A stretch of DNA of 35,048 nucleotides, taken from IMG/VR virus record IMGVR_UViG_3300024520_000260, positions 1 to 35,048 of that record. One strand, 5' to 3'. The stretch comes from a virus. The translations under genes were made by a program, and so were the position numbers. The notes beneath the pieces were generated by a model that was not told where the DNA came from, ran no database searches, and saw nothing but the letters and a program-made list of their open reading frames with translations. Positions 4,373 to 32,977 of the stretch are shown in pieces (position 1 is the stretch's first letter; every line of letters starts with the position of its first letter).

Positions 4373-4882
4373 ATGAAAAATTTAATATATTCAGCGTTAA
4401 TGTTGTTAATGTACCTGGTGTTCCCTTCGATGTCTTATGCAGTGGAACCACCACCAGTGCCACAGATTGAGCAACTTAATGATGTATTGCTTATATGGGA
4501 TGATGCTGACAAGCGTGAAAACGGTGGCGTGTTACTGCCTGCTGATATACGGGGTTACTTGCTTGTATACGGGTTAACGAGTGACAGCGGTATTGTTGAG
4601 CCTATTGAACTGAATAGAGTCAACGAGTACCCAATTAACAACCTAGCACCAGGTGAGTATTCGTTTTTCATTGCAACGGTTGATACTGGCGGTCTGCAAT
4701 CTGTGTGGGCTGAAACTATCACAACGATAGGATCACAGTTCAGACCATCGCCACCCGGTGGATTCTCGGCAAGTGTAAACAAGGATGTGGTTGGTGCTGT
4801 CAATGCTGTTATATCGTGTATGACAAGCAATAGGTGCGTGACAACTATTAAATTGAAGCATGCTGAACTAGACAAATCATAA
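4373..4882 (+). CDS. Secreted FnIII-like protein
   Basis: A 169-aa protein with a clear Sec signal peptide: MKN, a hydrophobic core (LIYSALMLLMYLVF) and a likely signal peptidase I site after SMSYA (about residue 23). The mature part reads like one fibronectin type III or Ig-like domain: 'VLLIWDDADKRENG', 'IRGYLLVYGL', 'GEYSFFIATVDTGGLQS'. The last 50 residues contain two cysteines (SCMTSNRC) that could pair in the periplasm. A signal peptide inside a phage structural block is odd, since virion proteins assemble in the cytoplasm. It may act in the host envelope, for instance against superinfection, but no direct evidence shows this. Confidence 0.7.
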   Translation: MKNLIYSALMLLMYLVFPSMSYAVEPPPVPQIEQLNDVLLIWDDADKRENGGVLLPADIRGYLLVYGLTSDSGIVEPIELNRVNEYPINNLAPGEYSFFIATVDTGGLQSVWAETITTIGSQFRPSPPGGFSASVNKDVVGAVNAVISCMTSNRCVTTIKLKHAELDKS

Positions 4883-6748: not shown

Positions 6749-7687
6749 ATGGCACGGCGCATTGTAGTCGTATCAGAAGAGTATGGTGCGTTTCGTTCTG
6801 CACAACTGGTTTCATCGCGTCCAGTTCACCAGTTGTTTCTGTTCGATACTGTAGGTCCACCGACCGCAAGCATAACAGCATCTCAGAATGAACTTGGTGA
6901 TAGTACAACTGCAAGTGTTGAATCACTGATACAATTTACAGCATCACAGAATGAACTTGGTGATAGTACTACTGCATTAATTCAAGCACCTGCACAGATT
7001 ACAGCATCACAGAATGAACTTGGTGATAGTACTACTGCAGCGGTTGAAGTTGTACCGCTTGCAGCAAGCATTACAGCATCACAGAATGAACTTGGTGATA
7101 GTACTACTGCATTAATTCAAGCACCTGCACAGATTACAGCATCACAGAATGAACTTGGTGATAGCACTACTGCCAGTGTTATAGGTGTACTCACAAGTGA
7201 GATAACAGCATCTCAGAATGAACTTGGTGATAGTACAACTGCAAGTGTTGAATCACTGATACAGTTTACAGCAAGTCAGAATGAACTTGGTGATAGCACT
7301 ACTGCATTAATTCAAGCACCTGCACAGATTACAGCATCACAGAATGAACTTGGTGATAGCACTACTGCAAGCATTAGCAGCATACTTACCAGCAGTATTA
7401 CAGCATCACAGAATGAACTTGGTGATAGTACCACTGCAAGCATTGAATCGATTATTGAAGTCAGTGCAAGTCAAACTGAAGAGGGTGATAACACCGTTGT
7501 ATCAATCGGTGTGGTGGCACAGTTTACAGCAAGCCAGAATGAAGCAGGTGACACTACCGTTGCGGTGGTGGTAGGTATACCCATCGTGATACCGGTGTCT
7601 GCTACACTAAGGTCGAGAATTAGTGATATAACCACTGTCACATCGGCTATAAATGATGTGGCAACTGTTAGGAGTAAAGTAGGCTAA
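6749..7687 (+). CDS. Repeat protein with 11 TASQNELGDSTTA-type units
   Basis: A 312-aa protein with a unique N-terminus of about 40 residues (MARRIVVVSEEYGAF), then nine perfect TASQNELGDSTTA motifs and two divergent ones (SASQTEEGDNTVV, TASQNEAGDTTVA), spaced 20-24 residues apart by variable linkers, then a 40-residue tail. The linkers repeat too: SVESLIQF followed by LIQAPAQI occurs at units 1-2 and again at 6-7. This regular strand/turn pattern suits a beta-solenoid or a string of strands, as in fibre shafts. Its stop overlaps the next start (TAATG). Function unknown; a structural spacer or fibre is the best guess. Confidence 0.75.
   Translation: MARRIVVVSEEYGAFRSAQLVSSRPVHQLFLFDTVGPPTASITASQNELGDSTTASVESLIQFTASQNELGDSTTALIQAPAQITASQNELGDSTTAAVEVVPLAASITASQNELGDSTTALIQAPAQITASQNELGDSTTASVIGVLTSEITASQNELGDSTTASVESLIQFTASQNELGDSTTALIQAPAQITASQNELGDSTTASISSILTSSITASQNELGDSTTASIESIIEVSASQTEEGDNTVVSIGVVAQFTASQNEAGDTTVAVVVGIPIVIPVSATLRSRISDITTVTSAINDVATVRSKVG
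6872..7572 (+). repeat. In-frame tandem repeats within the 312-aa protein gene
   Basis: Eleven units of about 60-72 bp share the core ACAGCATCACAGAATGAACT and its continuation. Several units are nearly identical at DNA level, including third codon positions, which shows recent expansion or gene conversion. The last two units are more diverged and are probably older. Copy number could vary between related phages or be mis-assembled from short reads. Confidence 0.9.
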
Positions 7688-8050: not shown

Positions 8051-9394
8051 ATGAGCGAACCGGTTGACATGGTGAAATATTTAAAAAATCAGGCAAGCAC
8101 ATTGCGTTATGCATTGGGTGCAATGCTCGGTTTATCCCATAACGATGAACGTGACATCTATAACATCTATGGTTATCCAGCACAATTAGAATATTCGATC
8201 ATGCGCCAATACGCCGGTAGACAAGGTATTGCTAACCTGATAACACACGGTGTTGCTAAATCATGCTGGCGCGATGGTTTCGAAATCTATGCAAATGCCG
8301 ATGAAGATGCAGAGCCAGAATTAGTAAATGAATTAACAGCGTTGAAAAAAGCAGGATTGAATAAGAAGCTAGAACAAGCTGATATTTTAAACCGTATCGG
8401 TAAATTTTCTGTTTTGTTTATAGGTGTACCTGATGAACAGGAAGCAGATCAACCGGTTGGCAGAGTGTCAGCATCAAATCTTGATAAGTTGTATTTTAAG
8501 GCATTTGCGTACGATGGTATTACAATTCATAAACAAGTGCAGGATACAAAGGACCCTCGTTATGGTCTGCCTGAGTTATACCAGGTGCAGCAAACAAATA
8601 GCAGTGCATTTGAAAAGGATGTGCAACGCAATGCTATCACTGTGCACTGGACTCGTATCGTGCATTTTAATGAGAATGCATTGGAATCCGATGTGGAAGG
8701 CATGGGTCAATTGGAACCTGTATTTAATAGGATTCTTGATCTTGATAAAGCTTGTGGTGGTTCAGCGGAGGCATACTTTCGTAATGCACGTGGTAAAATG
8801 GCGTATGAGGTTGATCCGAAGTTTGCCAGTGATCTATTAGACGATGAGACAGCTAGCGCAGCATTTGATGAAGGCGCGAAAAAATTTACCAACCAACAAC
8901 AAGATTTTATCAAGTTATCCGGTGCATCGGCTAAAGTACTGGACACACCGCATGCATCGCCTAAAGATACGATTCTAGCGGCACTGTGGGAAATTTCAGG
9001 CTATACAGGTATTCGCATTAGAATACTCACAGGTCAAGGTGCAGGACAGCATGCAGGCAGCGAGGATCAATTAGCTTATAATGCATTGATTGCAGGTAGA
9101 CAAGATTTACAGTGTGCTGGTTGGGTCGTCAATGTATTAGAGGTGTTAGCTAACGCTGGTATGCTGACACTACCAGAAAATTATGAGATTAGATTTCCAG
9201 TTCAGAAAGCAGTAACAGAAGTAGAAGCAGCCGGAATTGCAAGCACAAAAGCAACAACGATTAAATCAGTATCAGAAGCAGGTAGTACAATAGGTGGTGA
9301 TGATTTAGATGTTGAAGGTACTTTAAAATTGCTAGGCATTGATGTTGAAATATCTAGTATAGGCAACGGAGTGAGTGAAGATGAAAATGAATAG
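8051..9394 (+). CDS. Portal protein
   Basis: A 447-aa protein of the DUF1073-like portal group. Evidence: an N-terminal 'ERDIYNIYGYP...MRQYAGRQGIANLITHGVAKSCWRDGFEIYA' segment typical of portals, a middle 'KFSVLFIGVPD' strand, 'GLPELYQV', 'ITVHWTRIVHFNE' (the W-x-R-I-x-H-F portal element), and a C-terminal 'AALWEISGYTGIRIRILTGQ' crown/stem region. It forms the dodecameric ring at the capsid vertex through which TerL packages DNA. A strong AGGAGG (8037-8042) sits 8 bases before the ATG. Its end overlaps the next gene by 14 bases. Confidence 0.88.
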   Translation: MSEPVDMVKYLKNQASTLRYALGAMLGLSHNDERDIYNIYGYPAQLEYSIMRQYAGRQGIANLITHGVAKSCWRDGFEIYANADEDAEPELVNELTALKKAGLNKKLEQADILNRIGKFSVLFIGVPDEQEADQPVGRVSASNLDKLYFKAFAYDGITIHKQVQDTKDPRYGLPELYQVQQTNSSAFEKDVQRNAITVHWTRIVHFNENALESDVEGMGQLEPVFNRILDLDKACGGSAEAYFRNARGKMAYEVDPKFASDLLDDETASAAFDEGAKKFTNQQQDFIKLSGASAKVLDTPHASPKDTILAALWEISGYTGIRIRILTGQGAGQHAGSEDQLAYNALIAGRQDLQCAGWVVNVLEVLANAGMLTLPENYEIRFPVQKAVTEVEAAGIASTKATTIKSVSEAGSTIGGDDLDVEGTLKLLGIDVEISSIGNGVSEDENE

Positions 9395-10460
9395 AATTAT
9401 AGCGGGTGTATCGTTTGCGTTACTGTGCTTGATAGGGTTGTCAGTAACTGGAGATGTTGTACCACCACAAGTATTTGTACCTGCAACACCTATGCAGATT
9501 TCAAGCGGTAATGGTTCGGGTTATTCATGGATAAGTAAATTTGGTGAAAATCCTGACATTGATTCAGGTGGTGGTTTTGAGGTTATTTGGGATGCAGGCG
9601 GGGATTATGTTGCGCCTACAACCGCACGATTACATGATATTGCGTCAGATAATGCGGCTGATGTGGGTGTGGTTGTGTCAAGTGGTGTGGCAACTGGCGG
9701 TAGCGATGTAACCTTGGTTGATACCAGCGCAACGTTTTCCAGTGATGGCGTGATTGCAGGTGACTTCCTGCTGAATGACGACGATGTAACGATAGGCCGT
9801 GTGTTATCGGTGTTGAGTGAGACTGCTGTCTTCGTTAGTCGTATGGCAGACCCTAGGGGCGGTCTATCGATAGGTGTAAATCATGTCGGGAGTAATTACC
9901 GCATTGTGTCACCTAATGGCACAGGTGCAGGGATAATGCATTTAAGCGGTGTAGATGCGACCGCTGCAGAATTTCAATCTGAATTTGTTGTAATTAACGG
10001 TGCAAGTAATGTGGCAACTGCAAAAAGTTATTTTATGATCCACCGTTGCCGAATTTTCGTTGCTGGCGCAACTAACGGTGCAGTAGGTGTAATTACAGCC
10101 ACAGCACAGACTGATGGTACAGTTACTTGTCAAGTGGTGGACGGTAATAACCAATCGGAAATGGCTGTTTTTATGGTGCCAAGAAATTACACGGCATATT
10201 TGACATCATGGTGGGCGTCGATTTCTAGCAGGAATACATCTAGCTCAGTTGTAAAATTGCGTGCAGGTGAATTAAACGGCGTATCATATGTTACGCAAGT
10301 GCGTGCACTGAATTCATCCGGATCAGGTAATTTTATTTATGTATATCCTATCCCCACCACGATACCCGGTGGCGCTTCAATATTTATTGAGGCTGACTCA
10401 AGTGCCAATAATACTGCGTTATCAGGTGGTTTTGAACTGACACTAATTAGAAATAGATAA
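9381..10460 (+). CDS. Virion-type protein with signal peptide, marine phage-like
   Basis: A 359-aa protein from ATG 9381 (GGAG 9 bases upstream; a GTG at 9375 is too close). It begins with a signal-like segment (MKMNR then IIAGVSFALLCLIGLSV). The rest resembles structural proteins I know from marine tailed phages: 'FGENPDIDSGGGFEVIWDAGGDYV', 'ARLHDIASDNAADVGVVV', 'GGSDVTLVDTSATF', a central strand region and a C-terminal 'SEMAVFMVPRNYTAYL ... GGFELTLIRNR'. In relatives I recall no signal peptide, so the N-terminus is odd. Alternatively the hydrophobic stretch anchors the protein. It lies between portal and MuF genes. Confidence 0.6.
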   Translation: MKMNRIIAGVSFALLCLIGLSVTGDVVPPQVFVPATPMQISSGNGSGYSWISKFGENPDIDSGGGFEVIWDAGGDYVAPTTARLHDIASDNAADVGVVVSSGVATGGSDVTLVDTSATFSSDGVIAGDFLLNDDDVTIGRVLSVLSETAVFVSRMADPRGGLSIGVNHVGSNYRIVSPNGTGAGIMHLSGVDATAAEFQSEFVVINGASNVATAKSYFMIHRCRIFVAGATNGAVGVITATAQTDGTVTCQVVDGNNQSEMAVFMVPRNYTAYLTSWWASISSRNTSSSVVKLRAGELNGVSYVTQVRALNSSGSGNFIYVYPIPTTIPGGASIFIEADSSANNTALSGGFELTLIRNR

Positions 10461-17512: not shown

Positions 17513-17872
17513 ATGATGGCACATTTGCCGATTCAGAAAGTGTTTGTGTCTGCTACTATACTCGGTGCAGGCATGGTTGCAGCTAGCGCAGGTGGTGATA
17601 CATTTGACAGTCATGAGGGTGTGTTCGTCCATGCATTGAACGAAAGTGGTGGCGACATCACTATCACGATTGAAGCAGTAGACCTTGAGATACCTACAAG
17701 CGAGGGCGGTAGTAGGTCAGTAGTTGACATGGTTGTCACTGTACCTATCGCAGTTGTTGAAGGTGTATTTTTCCAAGTACCTCCTGCATATATTTCAGGT
17801 GGTGTCGTTTCAATGGTGTACTCAAGTGTAACTGATATTACAGTGGGTATATTCGAGGTGAAGCATGACTAA
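17513..17872 (+). CDS. Tail-region paralog A1 (cassette copy 1)
   Basis: A 119-aa beta-rich protein starting MAHLPIQKVFVSATIL. Key blocks are 'SAGGDTFDSHEGVFVHALNESGGDITITIEAVD', 'VTVPIAVVEGVFFQVPPAYISGGVVSMVYSSVTDITVGIFEV'. The GDTFD...G.FVH..N..G..ITITI core followed by 'F.VPPAY' and 'G.V.M.YSS' recalls small phage proteins with a 'GD.F.n.G.tfl.vkN' pattern. It has AGGAGGTG as SD and overlaps the next gene by 8 bases. It is three residues shorter than A2 and A3. Probably a tail or head decoration subunit. Confidence 0.75.
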   Translation: MMAHLPIQKVFVSATILGAGMVAASAGGDTFDSHEGVFVHALNESGGDITITIEAVDLEIPTSEGGSRSVVDMVVTVPIAVVEGVFFQVPPAYISGGVVSMVYSSVTDITVGIFEVKHD

Positions 17873-18233
17873 ATTAGCACATCAAATAGTTAGCCAAACC
17901 GATCAAGTAGTTACAATGGTTTCTGCAAGTGCGAGCGGTGATACTTTTGATAATATTCCAGGTACATTTGTCTATATTGAAAACGGTGATGCATTTATAA
18001 GAACTATCACCATTGAACCTTCAGAATCGTCAATTTCAGGCAATAAATCAGGCGGAATGCTTGTGGCAGATATTGATTTAGACGTACCGGCTTTTTCTGG
18101 TGGAGTAAGAGGTAAGTTATTATTTGCAGTACCTTCAATATATCAGAATGCAAAGGGTGTGGTCGAAATGACATACAGCGATGAAAGTGGTCTGATTGTC
18201 GGTGTTGCACGTGTTGACCAAAATCAGTTATAA
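17865..18233 (+). CDS. Tail-region paralog B1 (cassette copy 1)
   Basis: A 122-aa beta-rich protein starting MTKLAHQIVSQTDQVV. Its core 'ASASGDTFDNIPGTFVYIENGDAFIRTITIEP' aligns with the A-type core, and 'LLFAVPSIYQNAKGVVEMTYSDESGLIVGVARV' aligns with the A-type 'VPPAY...G.V.M.YSS' end, so A and B are related. B differs by a hydrophilic 'SGNKSG' loop and the ending 'VARVDQNQL'. Start overlaps A1; SD GAGGTGA is inside the end of A1. Confidence 0.75.
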   Translation: MTKLAHQIVSQTDQVVTMVSASASGDTFDNIPGTFVYIENGDAFIRTITIEPSESSISGNKSGGMLVADIDLDVPAFSGGVRGKLLFAVPSIYQNAKGVVEMTYSDESGLIVGVARVDQNQL

Positions 18234-18246
18234 CGGAGGGTGAATT

Positions 18247-18615
18247 ATGGCACATTTGCCAATTAATAAAGTTGAGCGTGCTAGCCTAGACTTGCAAATG
18301 AATTCTATATTACTGAATGCCGCAAGTGCAGGTGGTGATACATTTAACAGCCATGAGGGTGTGTTTGTTCGCGCAGTCAATGATAGTGGTGGAAACATCA
18401 CTATCACCATTGCAGCGGTGGACACACTTATCCCTACCAGTGACGCTGGTGCGAGATCAGTCAACGATATGACTGTTGTGGTGCCTACTGCAACCAGCAA
18501 CGGCATATATTTTGAAGTGCCCCCTGCATTCATTGGTTTAGGTGGCATAGTCACAATGACTTACAGCACTGAAGTTGGTTTATTCTTGACTGTAATGGAG
18601 GTGAACCATGACTAA
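18247..18615 (+). CDS. Tail-region paralog A2 (cassette copy 2)
   Basis: A 122-aa protein with the same start (MAHLPINKV) and core as A1: 'SAGGDTFNSHEGVFVRAVNDSGGNITITIAAVDTLIPTSDAGARSVNDMTVVVP', then 'YFEVPPAFIGLGGIVTMTYSTEVGLFLTVMEV'. The stretch after MAHLPINKV (ERASLDLQMNSIL) differs strongly from A1 and A3, whereas the GDTF and VPPA blocks stay constant, which indicates a fixed fold with a variable N-terminal segment. SD is GGAGGG 8-9 bases upstream. Confidence 0.75.
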   Translation: MAHLPINKVERASLDLQMNSILLNAASAGGDTFNSHEGVFVRAVNDSGGNITITIAAVDTLIPTSDAGARSVNDMTVVVPTATSNGIYFEVPPAFIGLGGIVTMTYSTEVGLFLTVMEVNHD

Positions 18616-18976
18616 ACTAGTGTATCAGTATATAAGTCAAACTAACATTGCACTAACAATGGCCAATGCTGCCTCCAGTGGGGATACATTTGATAATTTA
18701 CCTAAAACATTTGTTCATGTTGAAAATTCAAATGTTGCAAACAGAACAATTACTGTTAAGCCGCGAATTGATGAAAGTGCAGGTAATAAATCAGGTGTAA
18801 TTCCACTAGTGGATTTAACTATTGTGGTTGACGCCTCGTCCGGTGGTGATCCAGGGTTAAGGGTGTTTTCAATACCACCCGCATATCAAAGTGCAAAAGG
18901 TGTTGTTAAAATGACTTACAGTGATAGCAGTGGGTTAACAGTGGCGGTTGCTCGTGTCAATAGACAGCAGTTATAA
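18608..18976 (+). CDS. Tail-region paralog B2 (cassette copy 2)
   Basis: A 122-aa B-type protein: 'MTKLVYQYISQTNIALTMANAASSGDTFDNLPKTFVHVENSNVANRTITVKP', then 'GNKSGVIPLVDLTIVVD', and 'FSIPPAYQSAKGVVKMTYSDSSGLTVAVARVNRQQL'. It keeps the B-specific GNKSG loop and QQL ending. Basic residues (KPRIDES) replace the acidic/polar ones of B1 at the same place, so surface charge differs between copies. Overlaps A2 by 8 bases. Confidence 0.75.
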   Translation: MTKLVYQYISQTNIALTMANAASSGDTFDNLPKTFVHVENSNVANRTITVKPRIDESAGNKSGVIPLVDLTIVVDASSGGDPGLRVFSIPPAYQSAKGVVKMTYSDSSGLTVAVARVNRQQL

Positions 18977-18989
18977 CGGAGGGTGAGTT

Positions 18990-19358
18990 ATGGCACATTT
19001 GCCAATTAATAAAGTTACATCAGGTGCAGGTGTATCGGGTAATCCGTTAGTAGCTGGCATGGTGTCGGCTGAATCAAGCGGTGATACGTTTGACAGTCAC
19101 GAGGGTGTGTATGCACATGCTGAAAATGATGGTGGGGCTGACATCACTATCACGATTAAACCTATTGCTGTTGACATTCCAACGAGTGAGGCACAGCGAA
19201 GAGTCATCGCTGATATGACCGTAGTTGTACCTTATACATCAGATGTAGGTGTATTTTTCGAAGTACCCCCCGCATACATAAGCGGTGGAAAAGTAAAAAT
19301 GAAATATTCAAGTGTAACTGGTTTAACAATCGGTGTATTTGAGGTGACTAATGACTAA
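18990..19358 (+). CDS. Tail-region paralog A3 (cassette copy 3)
   Basis: A 122-aa A-type protein: 'MAHLPINKVTSGAGVSGNPLVAGMVSAESSGDTFDSHEGVYAHAENDGGADITITIKP', then 'ADMTVVVPYTSDVGVFFEVPPAYISGGKVKMKYSSVTGLTIGVFEV'. Its ending is closest to A1 (PPAYISGG, YSSVT), while its start and SD are closest to A2 (MAHLPINKV, GGAGGGTGA). This mosaic is consistent with recombination or gene conversion between copies. Confidence 0.75.
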   Translation: MAHLPINKVTSGAGVSGNPLVAGMVSAESSGDTFDSHEGVYAHAENDGGADITITIKPIAVDIPTSEAQRRVIADMTVVVPYTSDVGVFFEVPPAYISGGKVKMKYSSVTGLTIGVFEVTND

Positions 19359-19719
19359 GTTTACACATCAACATGTCAGTCAAGAAAACAATACGTTATC
19401 AGGTCAAGCGGCTACACCTAGTGATACATTCGATAATGTACCGGGAACGTTTGTCTATGTTCAAAATGCAGATACACTTGCGACTAGAACGATTACAATT
19501 AGCGCACAGACTACACCGATTACCGGCAACGAATCAGGTGCAATATCACTGCCTGATTTGACAGTAGTTGTTCCCATGGCAGTAGGAAGTGAAACAGGTA
19601 AGCATATGTTTTCTGTGCCACCTGCCTATCAAAATTTAGCAGGTGTAGTCACCATGGGTTATGATGATGAAACAGACCTTGTGGTAGGTGTTGCACGTGT
19701 TGACAGGCAGCAATTATAA
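19351..19719 (+). CDS. Tail-region paralog B3 (cassette copy 3)
   Basis: A 122-aa B-type protein: 'MTKFTHQHVSQENNTLSGQAATPSDTFDNVPGTFVYVQNADTLATRTITISAQ', 'GNESGAISLPDLTVVVP', 'FSVPPAYQNLAGVVTMGYDDETDLVVGVARVDRQQL'. It is the last cassette gene and ends directly against the tail chaperone gene (TAA then ATG with no gap). The conserved glycine before DTF is replaced by proline-serine (TPSDTF), the only copy to do so. Confidence 0.75.
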   Translation: MTKFTHQHVSQENNTLSGQAATPSDTFDNVPGTFVYVQNADTLATRTITISAQTTPITGNESGAISLPDLTVVVPMAVGSETGKHMFSVPPAYQNLAGVVTMGYDDETDLVVGVARVDRQQL

Positions 19720-27281: not shown

Positions 27282-27533
27282 TTATTTATCCTCCTTGATC
27301 ATAGCGAGTTTGCGCTCGCATGCTTGCATTATCTCAGTAATAACTTTTTCCTCGCTATCGCCCTTACCAGTCCATCGTAGACCCTTTTTTACGATCTGTT
27401 CCCTTGCACCACCGCCAATACCTAAAACTTCACAGATGCGATAAGGATCAAGCACAAGGTGTATTTGTTTTGCTTTTATTTCCTCGTCTGTTAGATTTCT
27501 AATCCATATATTATTATAGTGTTTCGGCTGCAT
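27282..27533 (-). CDS. Small unknown protein, last gene of leftward operon
   Basis: An 83-aa protein starting MQPKHYNNIWIRNLTDEE. ATG 27533 is preferred over TTG 27548 because GAGGAG lies about 7 bases before it. It contains 'EEIKAKQIHLVLDPYRICEVLGIGGGAREQIVKKGLRWTGKG', then a charged helical C-terminus (EEKVITEIMQACERKLAMIKED). The GIGGGAREQIVKK stretch resembles a small nucleotide- or DNA-binding loop, but no family is recognised. It overlaps the upstream lipoprotein gene by 20 bases. Confidence 0.65.
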   Translation of the reverse strand: MQPKHYNNIWIRNLTDEEIKAKQIHLVLDPYRICEVLGIGGGAREQIVKKGLRWTGKGDSEEKVITEIMQACERKLAMIKEDK

Positions 27534-28125
27534 TGCTATTCTCCTCAAACCATCGTTCCCATCGATTCATAAGCCGAGATACATACCATTTGCACACCGG
27601 TTTCCATTGTTCATCAGTCAGTGATGCAGGCTCATTGATTGCCATATAGTACATAGCATTGGGTCGTTGTTCGTCTGTGCGTTCTGTATGACCCAATGTA
27701 TACCTGTGTCCCATCTCATGCATTAGTATGCGTTCAATTGTAGTATCGCTTGGCATTTCCATCCATCGAATATAAATTATGTTGACTGCAGGCGCATACC
27801 CGTAATACATTCCGATAGAATTCGATGCGTCAGTGTCAAGAAAAATAACAGTATCCGCTTCTTTATGTTCGTCAGATATTAACAGATTGCTGATTAGGAA
27901 ATAATCCCTATGTTTTCCCAACTCAGCACGCAACAAAGGCATGTACATGGGTGGAATCTCAACCTCTGTCCACACCATAGGATGTTTACACTCGTCTAAG
28001 TATTGTGCTGATATATTTTCTTTTACCACATCGGGTAAAACCACACCCGGCAAACTATATACAACTGTTTCACCAATACATGCGGTTAAACTTAAACTGA
28101 TTAGTATTAATAATAATTTTTTCAT
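27514..28125 (-). CDS. Lipoprotein with matrixin/metzincin-like zinc protease motif
   Basis: A 203-aa protein with a lipoprotein signal: MKK, hydrophobic LLLILISLS and lipobox LTAC with C16 as the lipidated cysteine. The mature domain ends in HEMGHRYTLGH (residues 136-146), a HExxHxxxxxH zinc site, followed by a possible Met-turn at 'NAMYYM' (M158) and 'LTDEQWKPVCKWY', which is the order in matrixins. The usual glycine at the eighth position of the motif is threonine. It should be exported and membrane-anchored in the envelope. Its gene is overlapped 4 bases by the polymerase stop, so it is transcribed with replication genes. Target unknown: envelope proteins, superinfection or lysis are options. 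Confidence 0.75.
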   Translation of the reverse strand: MKKLLLILISLSLTACIGETVVYSLPGVVLPDVVKENISAQYLDECKHPMVWTEVEIPPMYMPLLRAELGKHRDYFLISNLLISDEHKEADTVIFLDTDASNSIGMYYGYAPAVNIIYIRWMEMPSDTTIERILMHEMGHRYTLGHTERTDEQRPNAMYYMAINEPASLTDEQWKPVCKWYVSRLMNRWERWFEENSNAAETL

Positions 28126-30167
28126 TCTGTTACCCCGTTGATTAATTTCATTGTTTCGTTAATGTAATATTCATAGTTCAAATTATCCCAGTTAAAATTA
28201 CTTATGTTATTGCACTCTGTTACTTTCCACCCTGCTTCTAAATTACTTATTCGATAATCATGCACTGATTCGTTTTTAGTGTGTATTTTCGGATTGTGTA
28301 TTGTATTATCTGCAGCGTTGTAAATTTCTTTTGATGTGTTGTTATTTTTCTTGTATTCACCGAGTACCCCAGTTGGCGGTCTGGTTACTTTAATTTCGCC
28401 ACCGCGATTGCCGACGTAATACCGTGAGCGTCTTTGCAGCACAGTTTTACCCACCGTTAAAACTTCCGCATTCGTAGTTTTTGTGAAGATCATAAAATCA
28501 TAGGGATCACTGCAGCCGGTAATAAATTCACGCACATCTTTAAAATGCAATAGATTTGCCTCAGTAGCCTTTGCAACAATTAACGATGATTGATTCTGAT
28601 GCCATTCTTTTTCATAATCATACGCACCTTTGCGCTTTACTTTTCCATCTTTATAAACCGCAATATAATTATTAACATCACGGATATACATAGTGGAATA
28701 TATAGCTTCTTCCAAATCTAATAACGTGAATTTTTCCCACTGGTGATAAATTTCTCGTGATCGTTCTAGTGATGCGTGCTTACACCGGTAGGTGATGCCA
28801 TCAGTATTGCATTGAATAATTTTTAAATCCGGTATTGTTAACAACCATTCAGCAAGAACACACAATAATAATTGCCCATTGATAGTAATCGTCATCGTAT
28901 ATTGGGGGTCATAGAAACAAGTGTATTTATTGTTGCTATTGCCGAATCCTGAATTCATGGCTAATTTATAGGCTGCATTTTCCAGCGTACCCTTTTTGTA
29001 TTTCAAGCGCTCGTTTTTTAATTTCTCTACCACTGGATAAAACGATTCACCTAAGTGTTCTGGACTAATTCTATTAACAATGCCAAGCGATGGATAGTAG
29101 CTTGTGACATCAATGTCAATAACAATATACTCATGATTACTATGAACCGTTGCACCGGGAATGCTGGCATGTAATCCGCCTAAACCGAATACATAGCGCA
29201 AACCATCAACCGTGCATTCTAATTCTTCAAATAATCCTTTTGTTTCTTTGATGACTTGCGATGATAGATAATCTTTTATCCGGTTAAATTCTGGATTGTT
29301 AAATTTTATGTATGGAAAAATTACATGTTTTAGCGCGATGAAATCACGTGGTGTTTGTCGTTTGTTACCGAATTTATCAAAACATAAATCATGTCCTAAG
29401 TGATGCATAGTGATGTCAACACCGATTTTAGTATCGTTAAAATTCATAAAACTTTTATCATATTTTTTGCTCAATTCTTCCCTAAATTCAATCATTGGAA
29501 TTGATTCGATGTAAAATTTAAACGTGTTGATTACATCGAATTTATTGTATTGAATTAATTTATCTATTTCATTTTTCTTGAGTAGTGTACCCGGTTTGAA
29601 AGGTAAATCTTGAATATCATGCGAACGCATTGCAAATTCTATTTGCTTCAATGATGTTGATTTCTGACTGTTATCAAAGTGGTGAATTTTAAATAAATCG
29701 ATTTGTTTTATATAATAGTCCGACTCCCATATGTTATTATCAAAACGGTTTTTCCATGGTGTTGAAATCAACCGGTCTGATTCTATATAAATATCATTCG
29801 GTTCGATTTTACCGAATCGTTTATATCGATCGATCATCCAATGCAACAACAGATAGTCATAACCGACATTATTAAACCCGATGAATACAACATTTTGTTT
29901 CATCACGTATGTTAAAAAATTCATAAATGCTGCAGTCTGATTTTTTCGATAACTTATTTCATATTCGTAATGAGTTTTATCAGCACAGTGATAAATACAG
30001 ATTGTAAATACCCATGGGTAGCATTCAATATCATAAATATAATGCGCAGGATCATAACCCATATCAATACTAAACTCTTCACGTGTTGAACAAGCGGGGC
30101 ACTGCAAATCACTGTGATTATACAGCATCCCGCAACCGTTTACCGGATCACATTGGCGTGCACGCAC
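28122..30167 (-). CDS. Family B-like DNA polymerase with 3'-5' exonuclease
   Basis: A 681-aa protein. A small zinc-finger-like N-terminus has C6, C12, C23 and C26. Proofreading motifs: Exo I D46/E48 (YDIECY), Exo II N100 and D104 (FNNVGYD), Exo III Y207/D211 (YNKFD). Polymerase motifs: A with D353 (DIDVTSYYPS), B with K401 and N405-G407 (KLAMNSGFG), C as CNTDG (N454-D456) where DTD is usual. It copies phage DNA. No protein-priming inserts are recognised with certainty. It is co-transcribed with the SSB-like, nuclease and lipoprotein genes; start and stop codons overlap its neighbours. Confidence 0.88.
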   Translation of the reverse strand: MRARQCDPVNGCGMLYNHSDLQCPACSTREEFSIDMGYDPAHYIYDIECYPWVFTICIYHCADKTHYEYEISYRKNQTAAFMNFLTYVMKQNVVFIGFNNVGYDYLLLHWMIDRYKRFGKIEPNDIYIESDRLISTPWKNRFDNNIWESDYYIKQIDLFKIHHFDNSQKSTSLKQIEFAMRSHDIQDLPFKPGTLLKKNEIDKLIQYNKFDVINTFKFYIESIPMIEFREELSKKYDKSFMNFNDTKIGVDITMHHLGHDLCFDKFGNKRQTPRDFIALKHVIFPYIKFNNPEFNRIKDYLSSQVIKETKGLFEELECTVDGLRYVFGLGGLHASIPGATVHSNHEYIVIDIDVTSYYPSLGIVNRISPEHLGESFYPVVEKLKNERLKYKKGTLENAAYKLAMNSGFGNSNNKYTCFYDPQYTMTITINGQLLLCVLAEWLLTIPDLKIIQCNTDGITYRCKHASLERSREIYHQWEKFTLLDLEEAIYSTMYIRDVNNYIAVYKDGKVKRKGAYDYEKEWHQNQSSLIVAKATEANLLHFKDVREFITGCSDPYDFMIFTKTTNAEVLTVGKTVLQRRSRYYVGNRGGEIKVTRPPTGVLGEYKKNNNTSKEIYNAADNTIHNPKIHTKNESVHDYRISNLEAGWKVTECNNISNFNWDNLNYEYYINETMKLINGVTE

Positions 30168-31075
30168 TAGATAATAATACCCTTTGCACGCAATTCATCG
30201 TCATTCATAACCGCACGCCATTGTTCCAGCGTGTGTTCACCGGCTAACGGTGTGAGCGTAGGTTCTACAGCTGGTGTTGCGTTGTTGAACTCTTTCACGA
30301 ATTGACCTGGTGACAACACTTGACCAGTTGGTGCAGCAGACGCTTGTGGTGCACTTCCTGGACCTGGCTGTGCTTGTGGTGCACTTCCTGGACCTGGCTG
30401 TGCTTGTGGTGCACTTCCTGGACCTGGCTGTGCTTGTGGTGCACTGGCAACCGGTGATGTCTGCGCAACACCTGCAGGTAAACCTACAACGGGCGCTGCA
30501 CCCTCAAACACCTTAGAAGTGCTTATATTTCCACCAACGGATGCAAACGGCTCACCATAGCCAACCACCTGTAAATGCTCCATACGCATAATGATTTGTA
30601 AACCGAATTTAGGATGATTAAACGGGAACATTCGCAACATACCGCGCAGGAAAATACCGGGATAAATTTGAGAAGCTTCTACAGCTTGCCCGTTGATGTC
30701 AACAATACCGAATGGTACAGGCTCACCGTTATTTGAACCGCTGCGATACTTCATCCACCAGTGGTCTTTGTGACCTTCGTATTGTTCGTTAGTGTCATTG
30801 CTAAAACAATTCGCGGCGTTACCGTCTGCGAAATCTGGCGCAGAACAAGTAATAGCACCGTTTGCATCAATCAGACTGTTAATCTGTGCGCATTTTTGGC
30901 GCATTTCATAAAACCATTGCAAGTTGGAAAAATCATTGTTACCAAGATTCGGATATAACGCACGTAAATCATAGGCGGGTTTATCAGGGTCAAATGTATT
31001 CGGTGTTGCAACGTTGACGAACGTGGCACGAAATGCAGGTGTATATTCCTCGACATGTTGATATTTATCAGTCAT
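30167..31075 (-). CDS. DUF2815-like single-stranded DNA-binding protein
   Basis: A 302-aa protein starting MTDKYQHVEEYTPAF. ATG 31075 is chosen since GAGG is 9 bases upstream; a GTG at 31090 is part of that SD region. Residues up to about 185 match DUF2815-type ssDNA-binding folds: 'RATFVNVATPNTFDPDKPAYDLRALYPN', 'YPGIFLRGMLRMFPFNHPKFGLQIIMRMEHLQVVGYGEPFA'. After that comes a disordered region with three exact copies of SAPQAQPGPG, and a conserved-looking acidic end (EQWRAVMNDDELRAKGIII), as in other SSBs where tails recruit partners. Overlaps the nuclease gene by 8 bases. Confidence 0.75.
   Translation of the reverse strand: MTDKYQHVEEYTPAFRATFVNVATPNTFDPDKPAYDLRALYPNLGNNDFSNLQWFYEMRQKCAQINSLIDANGAITCSAPDFADGNAANCFSNDTNEQYEGHKDHWWMKYRSGSNNGEPVPFGIVDINGQAVEASQIYPGIFLRGMLRMFPFNHPKFGLQIIMRMEHLQVVGYGEPFASVGGNISTSKVFEGAAPVVGLPAGVAQTSPVASAPQAQPGPGSAPQAQPGPGSAPQAQPGPGSAPQASAAPTGQVLSPGQFVKEFNNATPAVEPTLTPLAGEHTLEQWRAVMNDDELRAKGIII
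30341..30444 (-). repeat. 30-bp tandem repeat in the SSB-like gene
   Basis: Three full 30-bp units (30341-30370, 30371-30400, 30401-30430) plus 14 bases of a fourth are nearly identical, the first differing at its first base. On the minus strand they encode the SAPQAQPGPG linker. Exact identity means recent expansion; copy number may vary between isolates and it lengthens the flexible linker in 10-residue steps. Confidence 0.9.
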
Positions 31076-32198
31076 TTTTAAAAACCTCACTTGTAGTTGC
31101 TATTGCTTGTCGGCTATCACTGAGCAATGCTATTTTAGTGTCGCCAACGGGTTTATATGAATATTTTTCTACTACTTCTAACAGTTTCTTTTTACCTTTG
31201 AATGTTTTCTCCAGTTGACTCGGTGACTTTAATTTATTCGGTGCGTAAATTTCAACAAGCGGTGCACCGGCTGCAATCAACTGTGTTTCTGTAGCAGTTG
31301 TGTCCGTTATTATCCGGTGCTTATTAGTGCGTACTAATTTACAACCGGGTATTTTAAAACCTCGTTGAATCCGTTCAGTACCGAATGCTATTGCTTCATT
31401 TTTAAGTTTTTCAACAGTCGGTGCAACTGTTAATATTTCCGCGATGGATTCCTCCGTTAGTGGGAACGGTGGTTCTATCGCACCCTTACACCATTCATTA
31501 TATTCAGGGCAGTTAATTTTAGCTTTGCAGTGCTTGCAGTGCGCACCCGGTGAACGTTTCGCTAATGGATTTTCCACCGCTTTTACAGTGGGTTCAAGCT
31601 TAGTTTTACCCCAATGCAAAACATCGTGATAATTTACAACCTGGCTACTGTATTTTACACCGCTGTTACTGCGTGGTTGAAAAATTCCCATTTGAACCTT
31701 AGCAGGAACAATGCTGAATTTTACTTGTAAATAATTCAACATCATCAATGCATAAATCCATAACTGATAATTATCAACCGCTGATACATCGTCAAATCCA
31801 TATTTTAGATCGTCAACATATAACATGCGCTCAGCGTGTGCATAGGTGCCATCGTCCAGCGTACCAAATAAATCCTTGCTAATTTCCGGCAATGACATTT
31901 TCAGTTCAATAAAACGGTGCTCAGGGCGTGCAGATCGTGAGCTAAGCAAATCAAGATATTCTTGAATGTGTTCAACCTGATCTGCAGTGACTTCAAAACC
32001 GTTAAACTTGCGACCGAGAAAACTACTTGCAGGTAAACCTACCAGCTTACAAGCTTCACTGTGCATGTGTGCACCTGTACCCTGTTCAGCCGGTTCAGAA
32101 TACAGGTCTGGCAGGTGTAACTGTGCAAGGCTGCTACCATGACAGTTGAACCATTTATTCGCACCCGAAGGCGATAGTAAATTACTATGCGTTAGCAT
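31068..32198 (-). CDS. DUF2800 Cas4-like PD-(D/E)XK nuclease
   Basis: A 376-aa protein counted from ATG 32198 (an upstream GTG at 32216 is possible). It has the DUF2800 opening 'LLSPSGANKWFNCHGSS' with Cys at about 19, 'EQGTGAHMHSEACKLVG', the nuclease core 'LFGTLDDGTY' (D115), 'YVDDLKYGFD' (D130, K132) and 'DNYQLWIYALM' (Q145), and a C-terminal C-x2-C-x5-C-x6-C run (C221-C237) that with the first Cys could hold an iron-sulphur cluster as in Cas4/AddB. It likely resects DNA ends for recombination together with the SSB-like protein. Overlaps both neighbours. Confidence 0.8.
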   Translation of the reverse strand: MLTHSNLLSPSGANKWFNCHGSSLAQLHLPDLYSEPAEQGTGAHMHSEACKLVGLPASSFLGRKFNGFEVTADQVEHIQEYLDLLSSRSARPEHRFIELKMSLPEISKDLFGTLDDGTYAHAERMLYVDDLKYGFDDVSAVDNYQLWIYALMMLNYLQVKFSIVPAKVQMGIFQPRSNSGVKYSSQVVNYHDVLHWGKTKLEPTVKAVENPLAKRSPGAHCKHCKAKINCPEYNEWCKGAIEPPFPLTEESIAEILTVAPTVEKLKNEAIAFGTERIQRGFKIPGCKLVRTNKHRIITDTTATETQLIAAGAPLVEIYAPNKLKSPSQLEKTFKGKKKLLEVVEKYSYKPVGDTKIALLSDSRQAIATTSEVFKND

Positions 32199-32943
32199 GA
32201 TGTTCCAATAATTCACTAATTATCCAGTCAGTAACCTCTGAAGTAGGTTCATTCAGTAACTCACTGTGATCATAACCCGGTTCGCCTCGTCCGACTTTCA
32301 TCAGTCGATGTCTGAGTGTTTCGTCACCGTGTACAGCAACGTGACGCGCACAGACTTCCATAAAACCGATACCCGGTTCATTAATATCCTGTGGTTGTGG
32401 TGACATTTGCGCAGCTTGTGGTATCGTTGCTGCAGCTTGCGGTGTTATCTGTGTTACATTCGATGTGGGTGCAGCAGTGGTTGTTTCGGTGACTGGTGCA
32501 ATAACATCATCGATTTCATTGTCTGCGGCTGCAGCGATTAACACGCGACGATCAGCCGCATACATGTCAGGTGTATAAGCTGCAGATTTGATTTTGGCAA
32601 AACATCCTTTAGTTGCGCCGGTTTTGTTCTTGCTGCGAGTGCCTGACATCATACCGCTGTGCCATGGGCAATTCATCGCGTCAACGTCATTCCAGTCGAT
32701 ACTACCATCGGGTAAACTGTCAATAGCACAGTTATCAGGTGTTTCTTCAGTGTCTTCAGTATCGGTGTCGTCAAATAAACTAGGCTTGACATCAGATGGG
32801 ATACCTTCTAAATCATTTACAACCGGTGCAAAATGTTGCATAGCGGTCATTGTTTGACGTAATTGATTGTTGAAAATTTCCATCGATCTTGTTAGATTTT
32901 CAACACCTGTTGTTAATACCTTAACGCTTTCTTCAAGTGACAT
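32185..32943 (-). CDS. First gene of replication operon, unknown (PWH motif)
   Basis: A 252-aa protein starting MSLEESVKVLTTGVENL; ATG 32943 has GAGG 9 bases upstream while ATG 32958 has none. N-terminal 45 residues form a coiled-coil-like helix; then an acidic linker (FDDTDTEDTEETPD), 'IDWNDVDAMNCPWHSGMMSG', a Thr/Gln/Ala/Pro-rich linker and a helical C-terminus. The 'D..N.PWH..M' stretch followed by Lys/Thr/Gly residues resembles the 'GVPWD.RIH' peptide motif found in many phage recombination and replication proteins. Overall it appears as a partner of the nuclease and SSB-like proteins, with no enzyme motif visible. Confidence 0.65.
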   Translation of the reverse strand: MSLEESVKVLTTGVENLTRSMEIFNNQLRQTMTAMQHFAPVVNDLEGIPSDVKPSLFDDTDTEDTEETPDNCAIDSLPDGSIDWNDVDAMNCPWHSGMMSGTRSKNKTGATKGCFAKIKSAAYTPDMYAADRRVLIAAAADNEIDDVIAPVTETTTAAPTSNVTQITPQAAATIPQAAQMSPQPQDINEPGIGFMEVCARHVAVHGDETLRHRLMKVGRGEPGYDHSELLNEPTSEVTDWIISELLEHHANA

Positions 32944-32977
32944 TTTAAATTTCCTCATTTATGTAAGTTTCTGGCGT

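Follow-up and report, generated by a model that had tools for sequence, protein, structure and literature searches.

Directly behind the DNA polymerase gene of a phage replication operon lies a gene whose product is probably a divergent metzincin and carries a predicted lipoprotein signal peptide of its own. Our reading, in which we place about as much confidence as doubt, is that this accessory gene is coupled behind the polymerase gene and encodes an exported, lipid-anchored zinc endopeptidase of the matrixin-like metzincin type, which would cut one or more host envelope proteins; of the roles such an enzyme might have, we pick the removal of a surface receptor. The sequence comes from a viral record 35,048 bases long, the whole of which is hereafter called the window.

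A lipobox protein gene inside a phage replication operon

The plus strand of the window carries terminase, portal, head, tape measure and tail genes, and the minus strand a replication operon. From its first to its last gene, with the landmarks of the protease gene set in place, this operon reads as follows:

32185..32958, minus strand: first operon gene, 257 aa, unknown, with a 29% identical homolog in the sister phage L012 (PHROG scan, comparison)
31068..32216, minus strand: DUF2800 exonuclease (family matches)
30167..31090, minus strand: single-stranded-DNA-binding protein, Enc34 type/Gp2.5-like (family matches)
28122..30167, minus strand: DNA polymerase, phrog_1252, E = 6e-176 (PHROG match)
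28133..28136, minus strand: GGGG, a ribosome-site-like stretch inside the polymerase gene, 7 nt before the ATG of the protease gene (sequence)
28122..28125, minus strand: ATGA overlap of 4 nt between polymerase stop and protease start (sequence)
27514..28125, minus strand: candidate matrixin-like lipoprotein gene, 203 aa (ORF, best-frame codon use, profile matches beyond the motif)
28078..28125, minus strand: predicted lipoprotein signal peptide, residues 1-16, with lipobox LTAC, C16 and Ile at +2 (sequence and strict lipobox pattern)
27688..27720, minus strand: HEMGHRYTLGH, residues 136-146, with presumed zinc ligands H136, H140 and H146, presumed catalytic E137, and Thr143 (sequence)
27643..27660, minus strand: NAMYYM, residues 156-161, presumed Met-turn with M158 (sequence)
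27282..27533, minus strand: last operon ORF, taken here from its ATG (counted from TTG 27548 it has 88 aa), without a family match or an export signal by eye (ORF, family scans)

Among named phages, the best polymerase matches were to Klebsiella, Escherichia, Salmonella and Edwardsiella phages and the best terminase matches to Vibrio phages, all below 60% identity; the host is likely gammaproteobacterial. Since most of the named relatives in these best matches have genomes of ~42-60 kb, part of this genome is probably missing. Elsewhere in the window, the contig begins with an AT-rich stretch (1-805) without a complete ORF of at least 60 aa, and two proteins of the head/packaging region have signal-peptide-like starts by eye, one matching phrog_8198 (9375-10460) and the other weakly a tail-fibre family (4373-4882). 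Between the major tail protein and tape measure genes, six consecutive ORFs of 119-122 aa (17513-19719) belong in turn to two types, one beginning like MAHLPI.KV and the other like MTK......SQ, which looks like a gene pair repeated to three copies.

An earlier note on this DNA had described the ORF at 27514-28125 with its lipobox, zinc motif and Met-turn-like stretch, had singled out E137, and had placed the gene between the polymerase and the operon end with overlaps on both sides; each of these points held, E137 being the right residue. The gene starts with ATG and is the last but one of the operon, ahead of one small ORF, which it overlaps by 20 nt when that ORF is counted from its ATG (27533) and by 35 nt when counted from the listed TTG (27548). 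Together, the overlaps, the upstream GGGG and a GAGGAG within the 3' end of the protease gene, before the ATG of the next ORF, suggest a gene fitted into the operon so that its translation is coupled. For synonymous codon use its frame scored best, at 0.085, a value at the low end of those of the other phage genes (0.060-0.225); the next best of the other five frames, on the antisense strand, scored 0.061. Neither the promoter count (26 vs 20.8 in shuffles, sd 4.7) nor the terminator count (6 vs 5.1, sd 2.4) was in clear excess, and an Rfam search gave no match.

The N-terminus of the protein (MKKLLLILISLSLTAC16, followed by IGE) begins with a few positively charged residues, continues as a hydrophobic run and closes with a lipobox that conforms to the strict pattern. 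With signal peptide and lipobox both in place, the protein has the features by which lipoproteins are recognised, and lipidation is predicted at C16; its remaining cysteines are only those at positions 46 and 178. As to the zinc site, the protein has all three His and the Glu of the HExxHxxGxxH/D consensus, with Thr143 in the place of the Gly, and the chance expectation of HExxHxxxxxH in a protein of this composition is ~0.0005.

For comparison we surveyed viral contigs for HExGHxxxLGH, which gave at least 120 stretches, so that all counts from it are those of a sample. Part one comprised 80 stretches, to which L009 was added and from which L008 was removed, and yielded 71 ORFs; a further 40 stretches in part two gave 37 ORFs, two of them with a strict lipobox (L206, L208). 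In the first part of these matches, a Met follows within 30 residues of the motif in 69 of 71 phage ORFs; in the protein described here, 11 residues separate H146 from M158. Alignment A4, which holds 32 of 48 non-redundant phage matrixin proteins, is invariant at the columns of H136, E137, G139, H140, L144, G145 and H146 and has at least 90% Met at that of M158.

Assignment to the metzincins

Established family models did not claim the protein at their own thresholds. No Pfam model reached its cut-off, and the sub-threshold matches were to M66 (E = 0.015), Reprolysin_5 (0.022), M10 (0.076) and Reprolysin_3 (0.22), all four of which we take to be metzincin families; against PF00413 (Peptidase_M10), the protease scored 13.3 bits vs a gathering score of 24. 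The sole NCBIfam match was to the M48 protease LoiP (E = 0.0015, 18 bits vs a cut-off of 365), spanning residues 116-149 in the numbering of a query without Met1. A sequence search of the PDB gave no match. In these scans, as in most of the homolog searches below and in the single-sequence model, the query was 202 aa long and lacked Met1, and the other minus-strand genes were likewise scanned minus their first residue; residue numbers refer to the complete protein except where stated.

A profile was also made for the purpose. An HMM from 70 phage matrixin cores, the query not included, gave the protease 33.3 bits, compared with a maximum of 27.9 (mean 16.6, sd 3.0) among 2000 shuffles that retained the 11-residue motif and randomised the rest; the HMM and the alignments were drawn from the first part of the motif matches listed. 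Likewise, hhalign against a profile of 31 other matrixins returned 97.8% with a score of 75.5, and at most 47.0 (mean 32.1, sd 3.6) for 150 shuffles of the same kind. As both scores beat the motif-kept shuffles, the flanks, too, resemble metzincins, and not just the motif. Lipobox, motif and profile tests thus bore out the core of the earlier note, a lipoprotein signal and a matrixin-like zinc site inside a replication operon. The active-site region also aligns with Peptidase_M10 (PF00413) and the Cytobacillus matrixin WP_243509776.1 along the pattern YG..IIY..W.E......HE.GH...LGHT; identity in a three-sequence alignment was 26%, and the protease differs by its lipobox and by Thr for Gly. Alignment A5 joins one Cytobacillus matrixin to 30 of the 48 phage proteins.

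Structure prediction gave at best a moderate model. A single-sequence AlphaFold2 model was disregarded (pLDDT 42.5), the Foldseek and VIA matches listed for it being unrelated folds. The alignment-based model, partly circular in that 32 phage matrixin ORFs were supplied as the alignment, reached pLDDT 60 and pTM 0.47, with ten-residue means of ~69-82 over residues 121-200, and its order of helices and strands is metzincin-like. Of the 50 matches that VIA-align listed for this model, 47 were to zinc peptidases, almost all of them metzincins, the best at Z = 6.2 (82 residues, 3.6 A), a level that is common according to the tool's notes; Foldseek placed a non-metzincin first (E = 0.47) and metzincins from rank 2 at similar E. 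We regard a metzincin fold as likely, and the protein is probably a divergent metzincin.

Thr143 had been taken in the earlier note as the mark of an unusual metzincin. It is indeed rare: at position 8 of the motif, Gly stands in 101 and Thr in one (L009) of the 108 phage HExGHxxxLGH ORFs listed. A scan of viral contigs for HExGHxxTLGH found three loci, with the motif in a 215-aa ORF (L009), in only a 56-aa ORF (L008) and in no ORF of at least 60 aa (L007). On the other hand, HExGHx[FY]TLGH occurs at five loci in genomes, at all but one of which (L092) the motif lies in a long ORF. These four ORFs, from Clostridia, Planctomycetota and Saprospiraceae records, look exported by eye, and the one of them scanned (L093) scored 21.5 bits for Peptidase_M10, whose cut-off is 24. 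The exchange is thus rare but recurrent, and alone does not mark a new class.

Two rival assignments bear on this site. That the protein is an inactive metzincin fold, acting by binding only, would agree with the rarity of the threonine; the three His, the Glu and the Met are nevertheless all retained and the same exchange recurs in the long bacterial ORFs, and we regard inactivity as improbable. The LoiP match, for its part, would make the protein a gluzincin of the M48/LoiP type rather than a metzincin, a reading that we consider very improbable, given a score far under the cut-off, a third His at metzincin spacing, a Met in the Met-turn place and no E[YFWLIV]x[AG]D motif after the zinc motif.

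Distribution of the gene and of short lipobox matrixins

Close homologs did not emerge from a tblastn search of 50,697 phage records (E up to 1). In the viral contigs, the protein alone found no homolog and alignment A2 gave 292 candidate stretches, none of them confirmed, and no homolog was found in the GTDB contigs, all of these scans requiring prior short peptide-pattern matches. Plasmids gave five weak matches only (E of 0.2 or worse). A set of 398 genomes, presumably Pseudomonadota, gave none, a zero that, without any positive, carries no weight, and a set of 296 genomes, presumably Bacteroidota, gave one (E = 2.5e-4 over 60 residues). Among seven selected records, four had matches (E = 0.0024-0.96), and the record of the sister phage (44 kb) had none. 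The 91-residue core matched 12 phage records at E of 2 or worse, 10 of them Lactococcus phages; we took these as chance HExxH matches, some of those in Lactococcus phages being annotated 'metallo-protease'.

L012, the nearest relative found, shares the operon (polymerase 59%, exonuclease 48%, single-stranded-DNA-binding protein 37% and first gene 29% identity) and also its flanks (helicase 53%, tail protein 48%). Behind its polymerase lies only a 93-aa ORF and no matrixin; endolysin and peptide deformylase genes of the sister phage are found beyond the helicase (L222:5932-6450 and 7141-7584). A check named in the earlier note, the presence of the gene in related phages at the same place, failed: of 85 polymerase-match loci, 78 extend 800 bp or more beyond the polymerase, and none of these, the sister phage included, has a plausible protease ORF there. 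One HExxHxxxxxH match in a 522-aa ORF behind a polymerase (L025) was rejected, as it lacks the matrixin pattern. Absent from the sister phage and from these 78 loci, the protease gene is accessory.

Proteins of the same general build are nonetheless found in other phages. In the motif survey, 13 of the 108 ORFs among the matches listed have a lipobox-like start, seven strict and six relaxed (the relaxed ones all in the first 71), compared with three of 1280 stop-to-stop ORFs, a low bar in that many of these are not genes. Neighbours were taken with a greedy ORF picker, and 46 chosen proteins were scanned, 32 of them from the 13 lipobox loci, which lie as follows:

L141: directly behind a helicase gene
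L170: directly before a 3'-5' exonuclease gene
L162: before an RNase H-like gene
L123: behind a nuclease gene
L120: near a helicase gene
L158: beside an endolysin gene
L208: directly behind an endolysin gene, the ends of the two overlapping
L166: beside an amidase gene
L171: two genes from a portal gene
L121: near glycosyltransferase genes

At L130, L142 and L206, the chosen genes scanned included no recognisable neighbours. Thus, a replication or nuclease gene lies within two positions at five of the 13 lipobox loci among the matches listed, and a lysis gene adjoins at three, both counts standing without a background rate of such neighbours. The former count weakens the statement of the earlier note that replication operons rarely hold exported envelope proteases. 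That short lipoprotein matrixins recur in phages, several of them among replication genes, is the surprising part. At L208 (673-2589), the ORF that follows on the plus strand (2011-2589) shows an i-spanin-like hydrophobic stretch close to its start and no PHROG match.

The L170 protein has a relative in Maribacter phages that have been cultivated, found in eight records of which two are RefSeq copies, and this links the survey to a described case. Bartlau et al. 2021 (PMC8776804) report a 199-aa metallopeptidase with a lipoprotein domain in the phage Molly and suggest that it degrades matrix. The zinc-dependent lipoprotein metallopeptidase found in the Maribacter phages Molly and Colly (in Molly_1, QQO97389.1) and the protease described here are both phage proteins of ~200 aa with a lipobox-like start, HExxHxxxLGH and a Met soon after; the Molly_1 protein has LFLSC and HEIAHVLGLGH, i.e., Gly where ours has Thr, and the two share no useful overall identity (a 22-residue BLAST match). 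Molly is a flavobacterial myovirus, and no annotated replication gene lies within 4 kb of its metallopeptidase gene. By size, lipobox and HExxH peptidase domain, our protein fits the Molly kind, of which it is a new divergent member, the kind itself having been noted already in one phage paper. In the accessible portion of PMC10002423, nothing on phage-encoded lipoproteins is found.

Possible roles at the host envelope

If translation is coupled behind the DNA polymerase, the protease would be made alongside the replication proteins, exported and lipid-anchored at Cys16. Under the sorting rule of the E. coli type, the residue after the lipobox Cys, here Ile at +2, sets the destination of a lipoprotein, and in a host with E. 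coli-like sorting the protease would come to lie at the outer membrane. There, the anchored zinc endopeptidase might cleave one or more host envelope proteins, and removal or alteration of a surface protein bound by phages would keep rivals out and spare progeny from being re-bound to debris. Zinc binding, activity, lipidation, outer-membrane location, timing, target and benefit are steps that we infer; so, too, do we infer the early expression and the roles in remodelling, exclusion or anti-defence that the earlier note had put forward. Our choice of exclusion for this gene follows from its position, which favours early or middle expression. If active, an envelope protease installed during replication would change the cell surface from within, and in this it would differ from Llp and Cor, the small non-enzymatic exclusion lipoproteins of phages.

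A rather different reading, somewhat unlikely in our estimate, is that the protease helps lysis: by cutting envelope proteins (e.g., outer-membrane/wall links), an anchored protease could make endolysin and spanins work better or spanins dispensable. The experimental precedent is Mtz of Listeria monocytogenes, described in PMC8235301 as a secreted metzincin that stems from a phage. It depends on its active-site Glu for cutting a lipoprotein partner, Tim, and together with Tim it raises the sensitivity of cells to phage lysis. Mtz resembles our protein as an exported metzincin of phage origin with an extended zinc motif, a Met-turn and an envelope action. It differs in having a Sec/SPI signal and a TIMP-like lipoprotein partner, the lipobox here being on the protease itself; no TIMP-like lipoprotein gene adjoins the protease gene, whose neighbours are the polymerase gene and the last operon ORF described above. 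The same reading gains from the matrixins beside the endolysin and amidase genes (L158, L166) and directly behind an endolysin gene (L208), and from polymerase relatives such as KpV52, in which lysozyme and spanin genes, one of them for a lipoprotein o-spanin, form a cassette 1.2-2.4 kb past the polymerase gene and on its strand. The Rz1-type o-spanin of the Jedunavirus relative KpV52 is, like our protein, a phage lipoprotein with lipobox LTAC whose gene follows that of the polymerase on the same strand, yet it has 78 aa, lacks a zinc motif and belongs to a lysis cassette further downstream. Our protein, with 203 aa and a zinc motif, does not have the marks of an o-spanin, and neither neighbour matches a spanin family. 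It does match an Rz-like spanin PHROG (E = 0.017, residues 2-48 of the query without Met1), but weakly and at the lipobox end. Otherwise no lysis gene was recognised with PHROGs among the 31 scanned window proteins, the contig being probably incomplete; moreover, the protease gene is coupled to replication rather than lysis genes, and the endolysin of the sister phage sits in another region. Our preference for exclusion over lysis is nevertheless weak, as three of the 13 listed lipobox loci adjoin lysis genes, L208 among them, and the experimental precedent concerns lysis; for this gene, the two stand about level.

Two further roles appear quite unlikely to us. Bartlau et al. (PMC8776804) proposed for Molly's metallopeptidase that such enzymes loosen matrix, so that a secreted or surface enzyme would let the phage reach cells or the progeny leave debris and matrix; this is a proposal without experiment, and an anchored protein would remain on the membrane of the infected cell. 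A counter-defence role at the envelope, in which the protease would destroy a membrane or periplasmic defence or stress sensor of the host early on, suits the position with replication genes and the absence from relatives, as arms-race genes would show, but nothing specific points to it.

Beyond this one gene, it would be attractive to suppose that unrelated phages have repeatedly set the gene for a short matrixin with a lipid anchor amid those of early replication as a common takeover tool, an envelope protease that from early infection shaves a receptor or undoes an envelope barrier; we think this generalisation unlikely. The position of L208 directly behind an endolysin gene lowered our estimate for it slightly, and slightly raised that for lysis help. 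As the cultivated Maribacter phages Molly and Colly carry such a protein, its target and benefit are directly testable there. Among the other surveyed matrixins, an identical 177-aa protein occurs in two contigs of 30,905 and 109,558 bases (L132:8507-9037 and L167:352-882), with a lipobox-like start that has no basic end, and a matrixin with a hydrophobic start is flanked in all of L145, L177 and L180 by ORFs of 163 aa and 467 aa, the L145 copies of which match HNH endonuclease and RNA-binding PHROG families.
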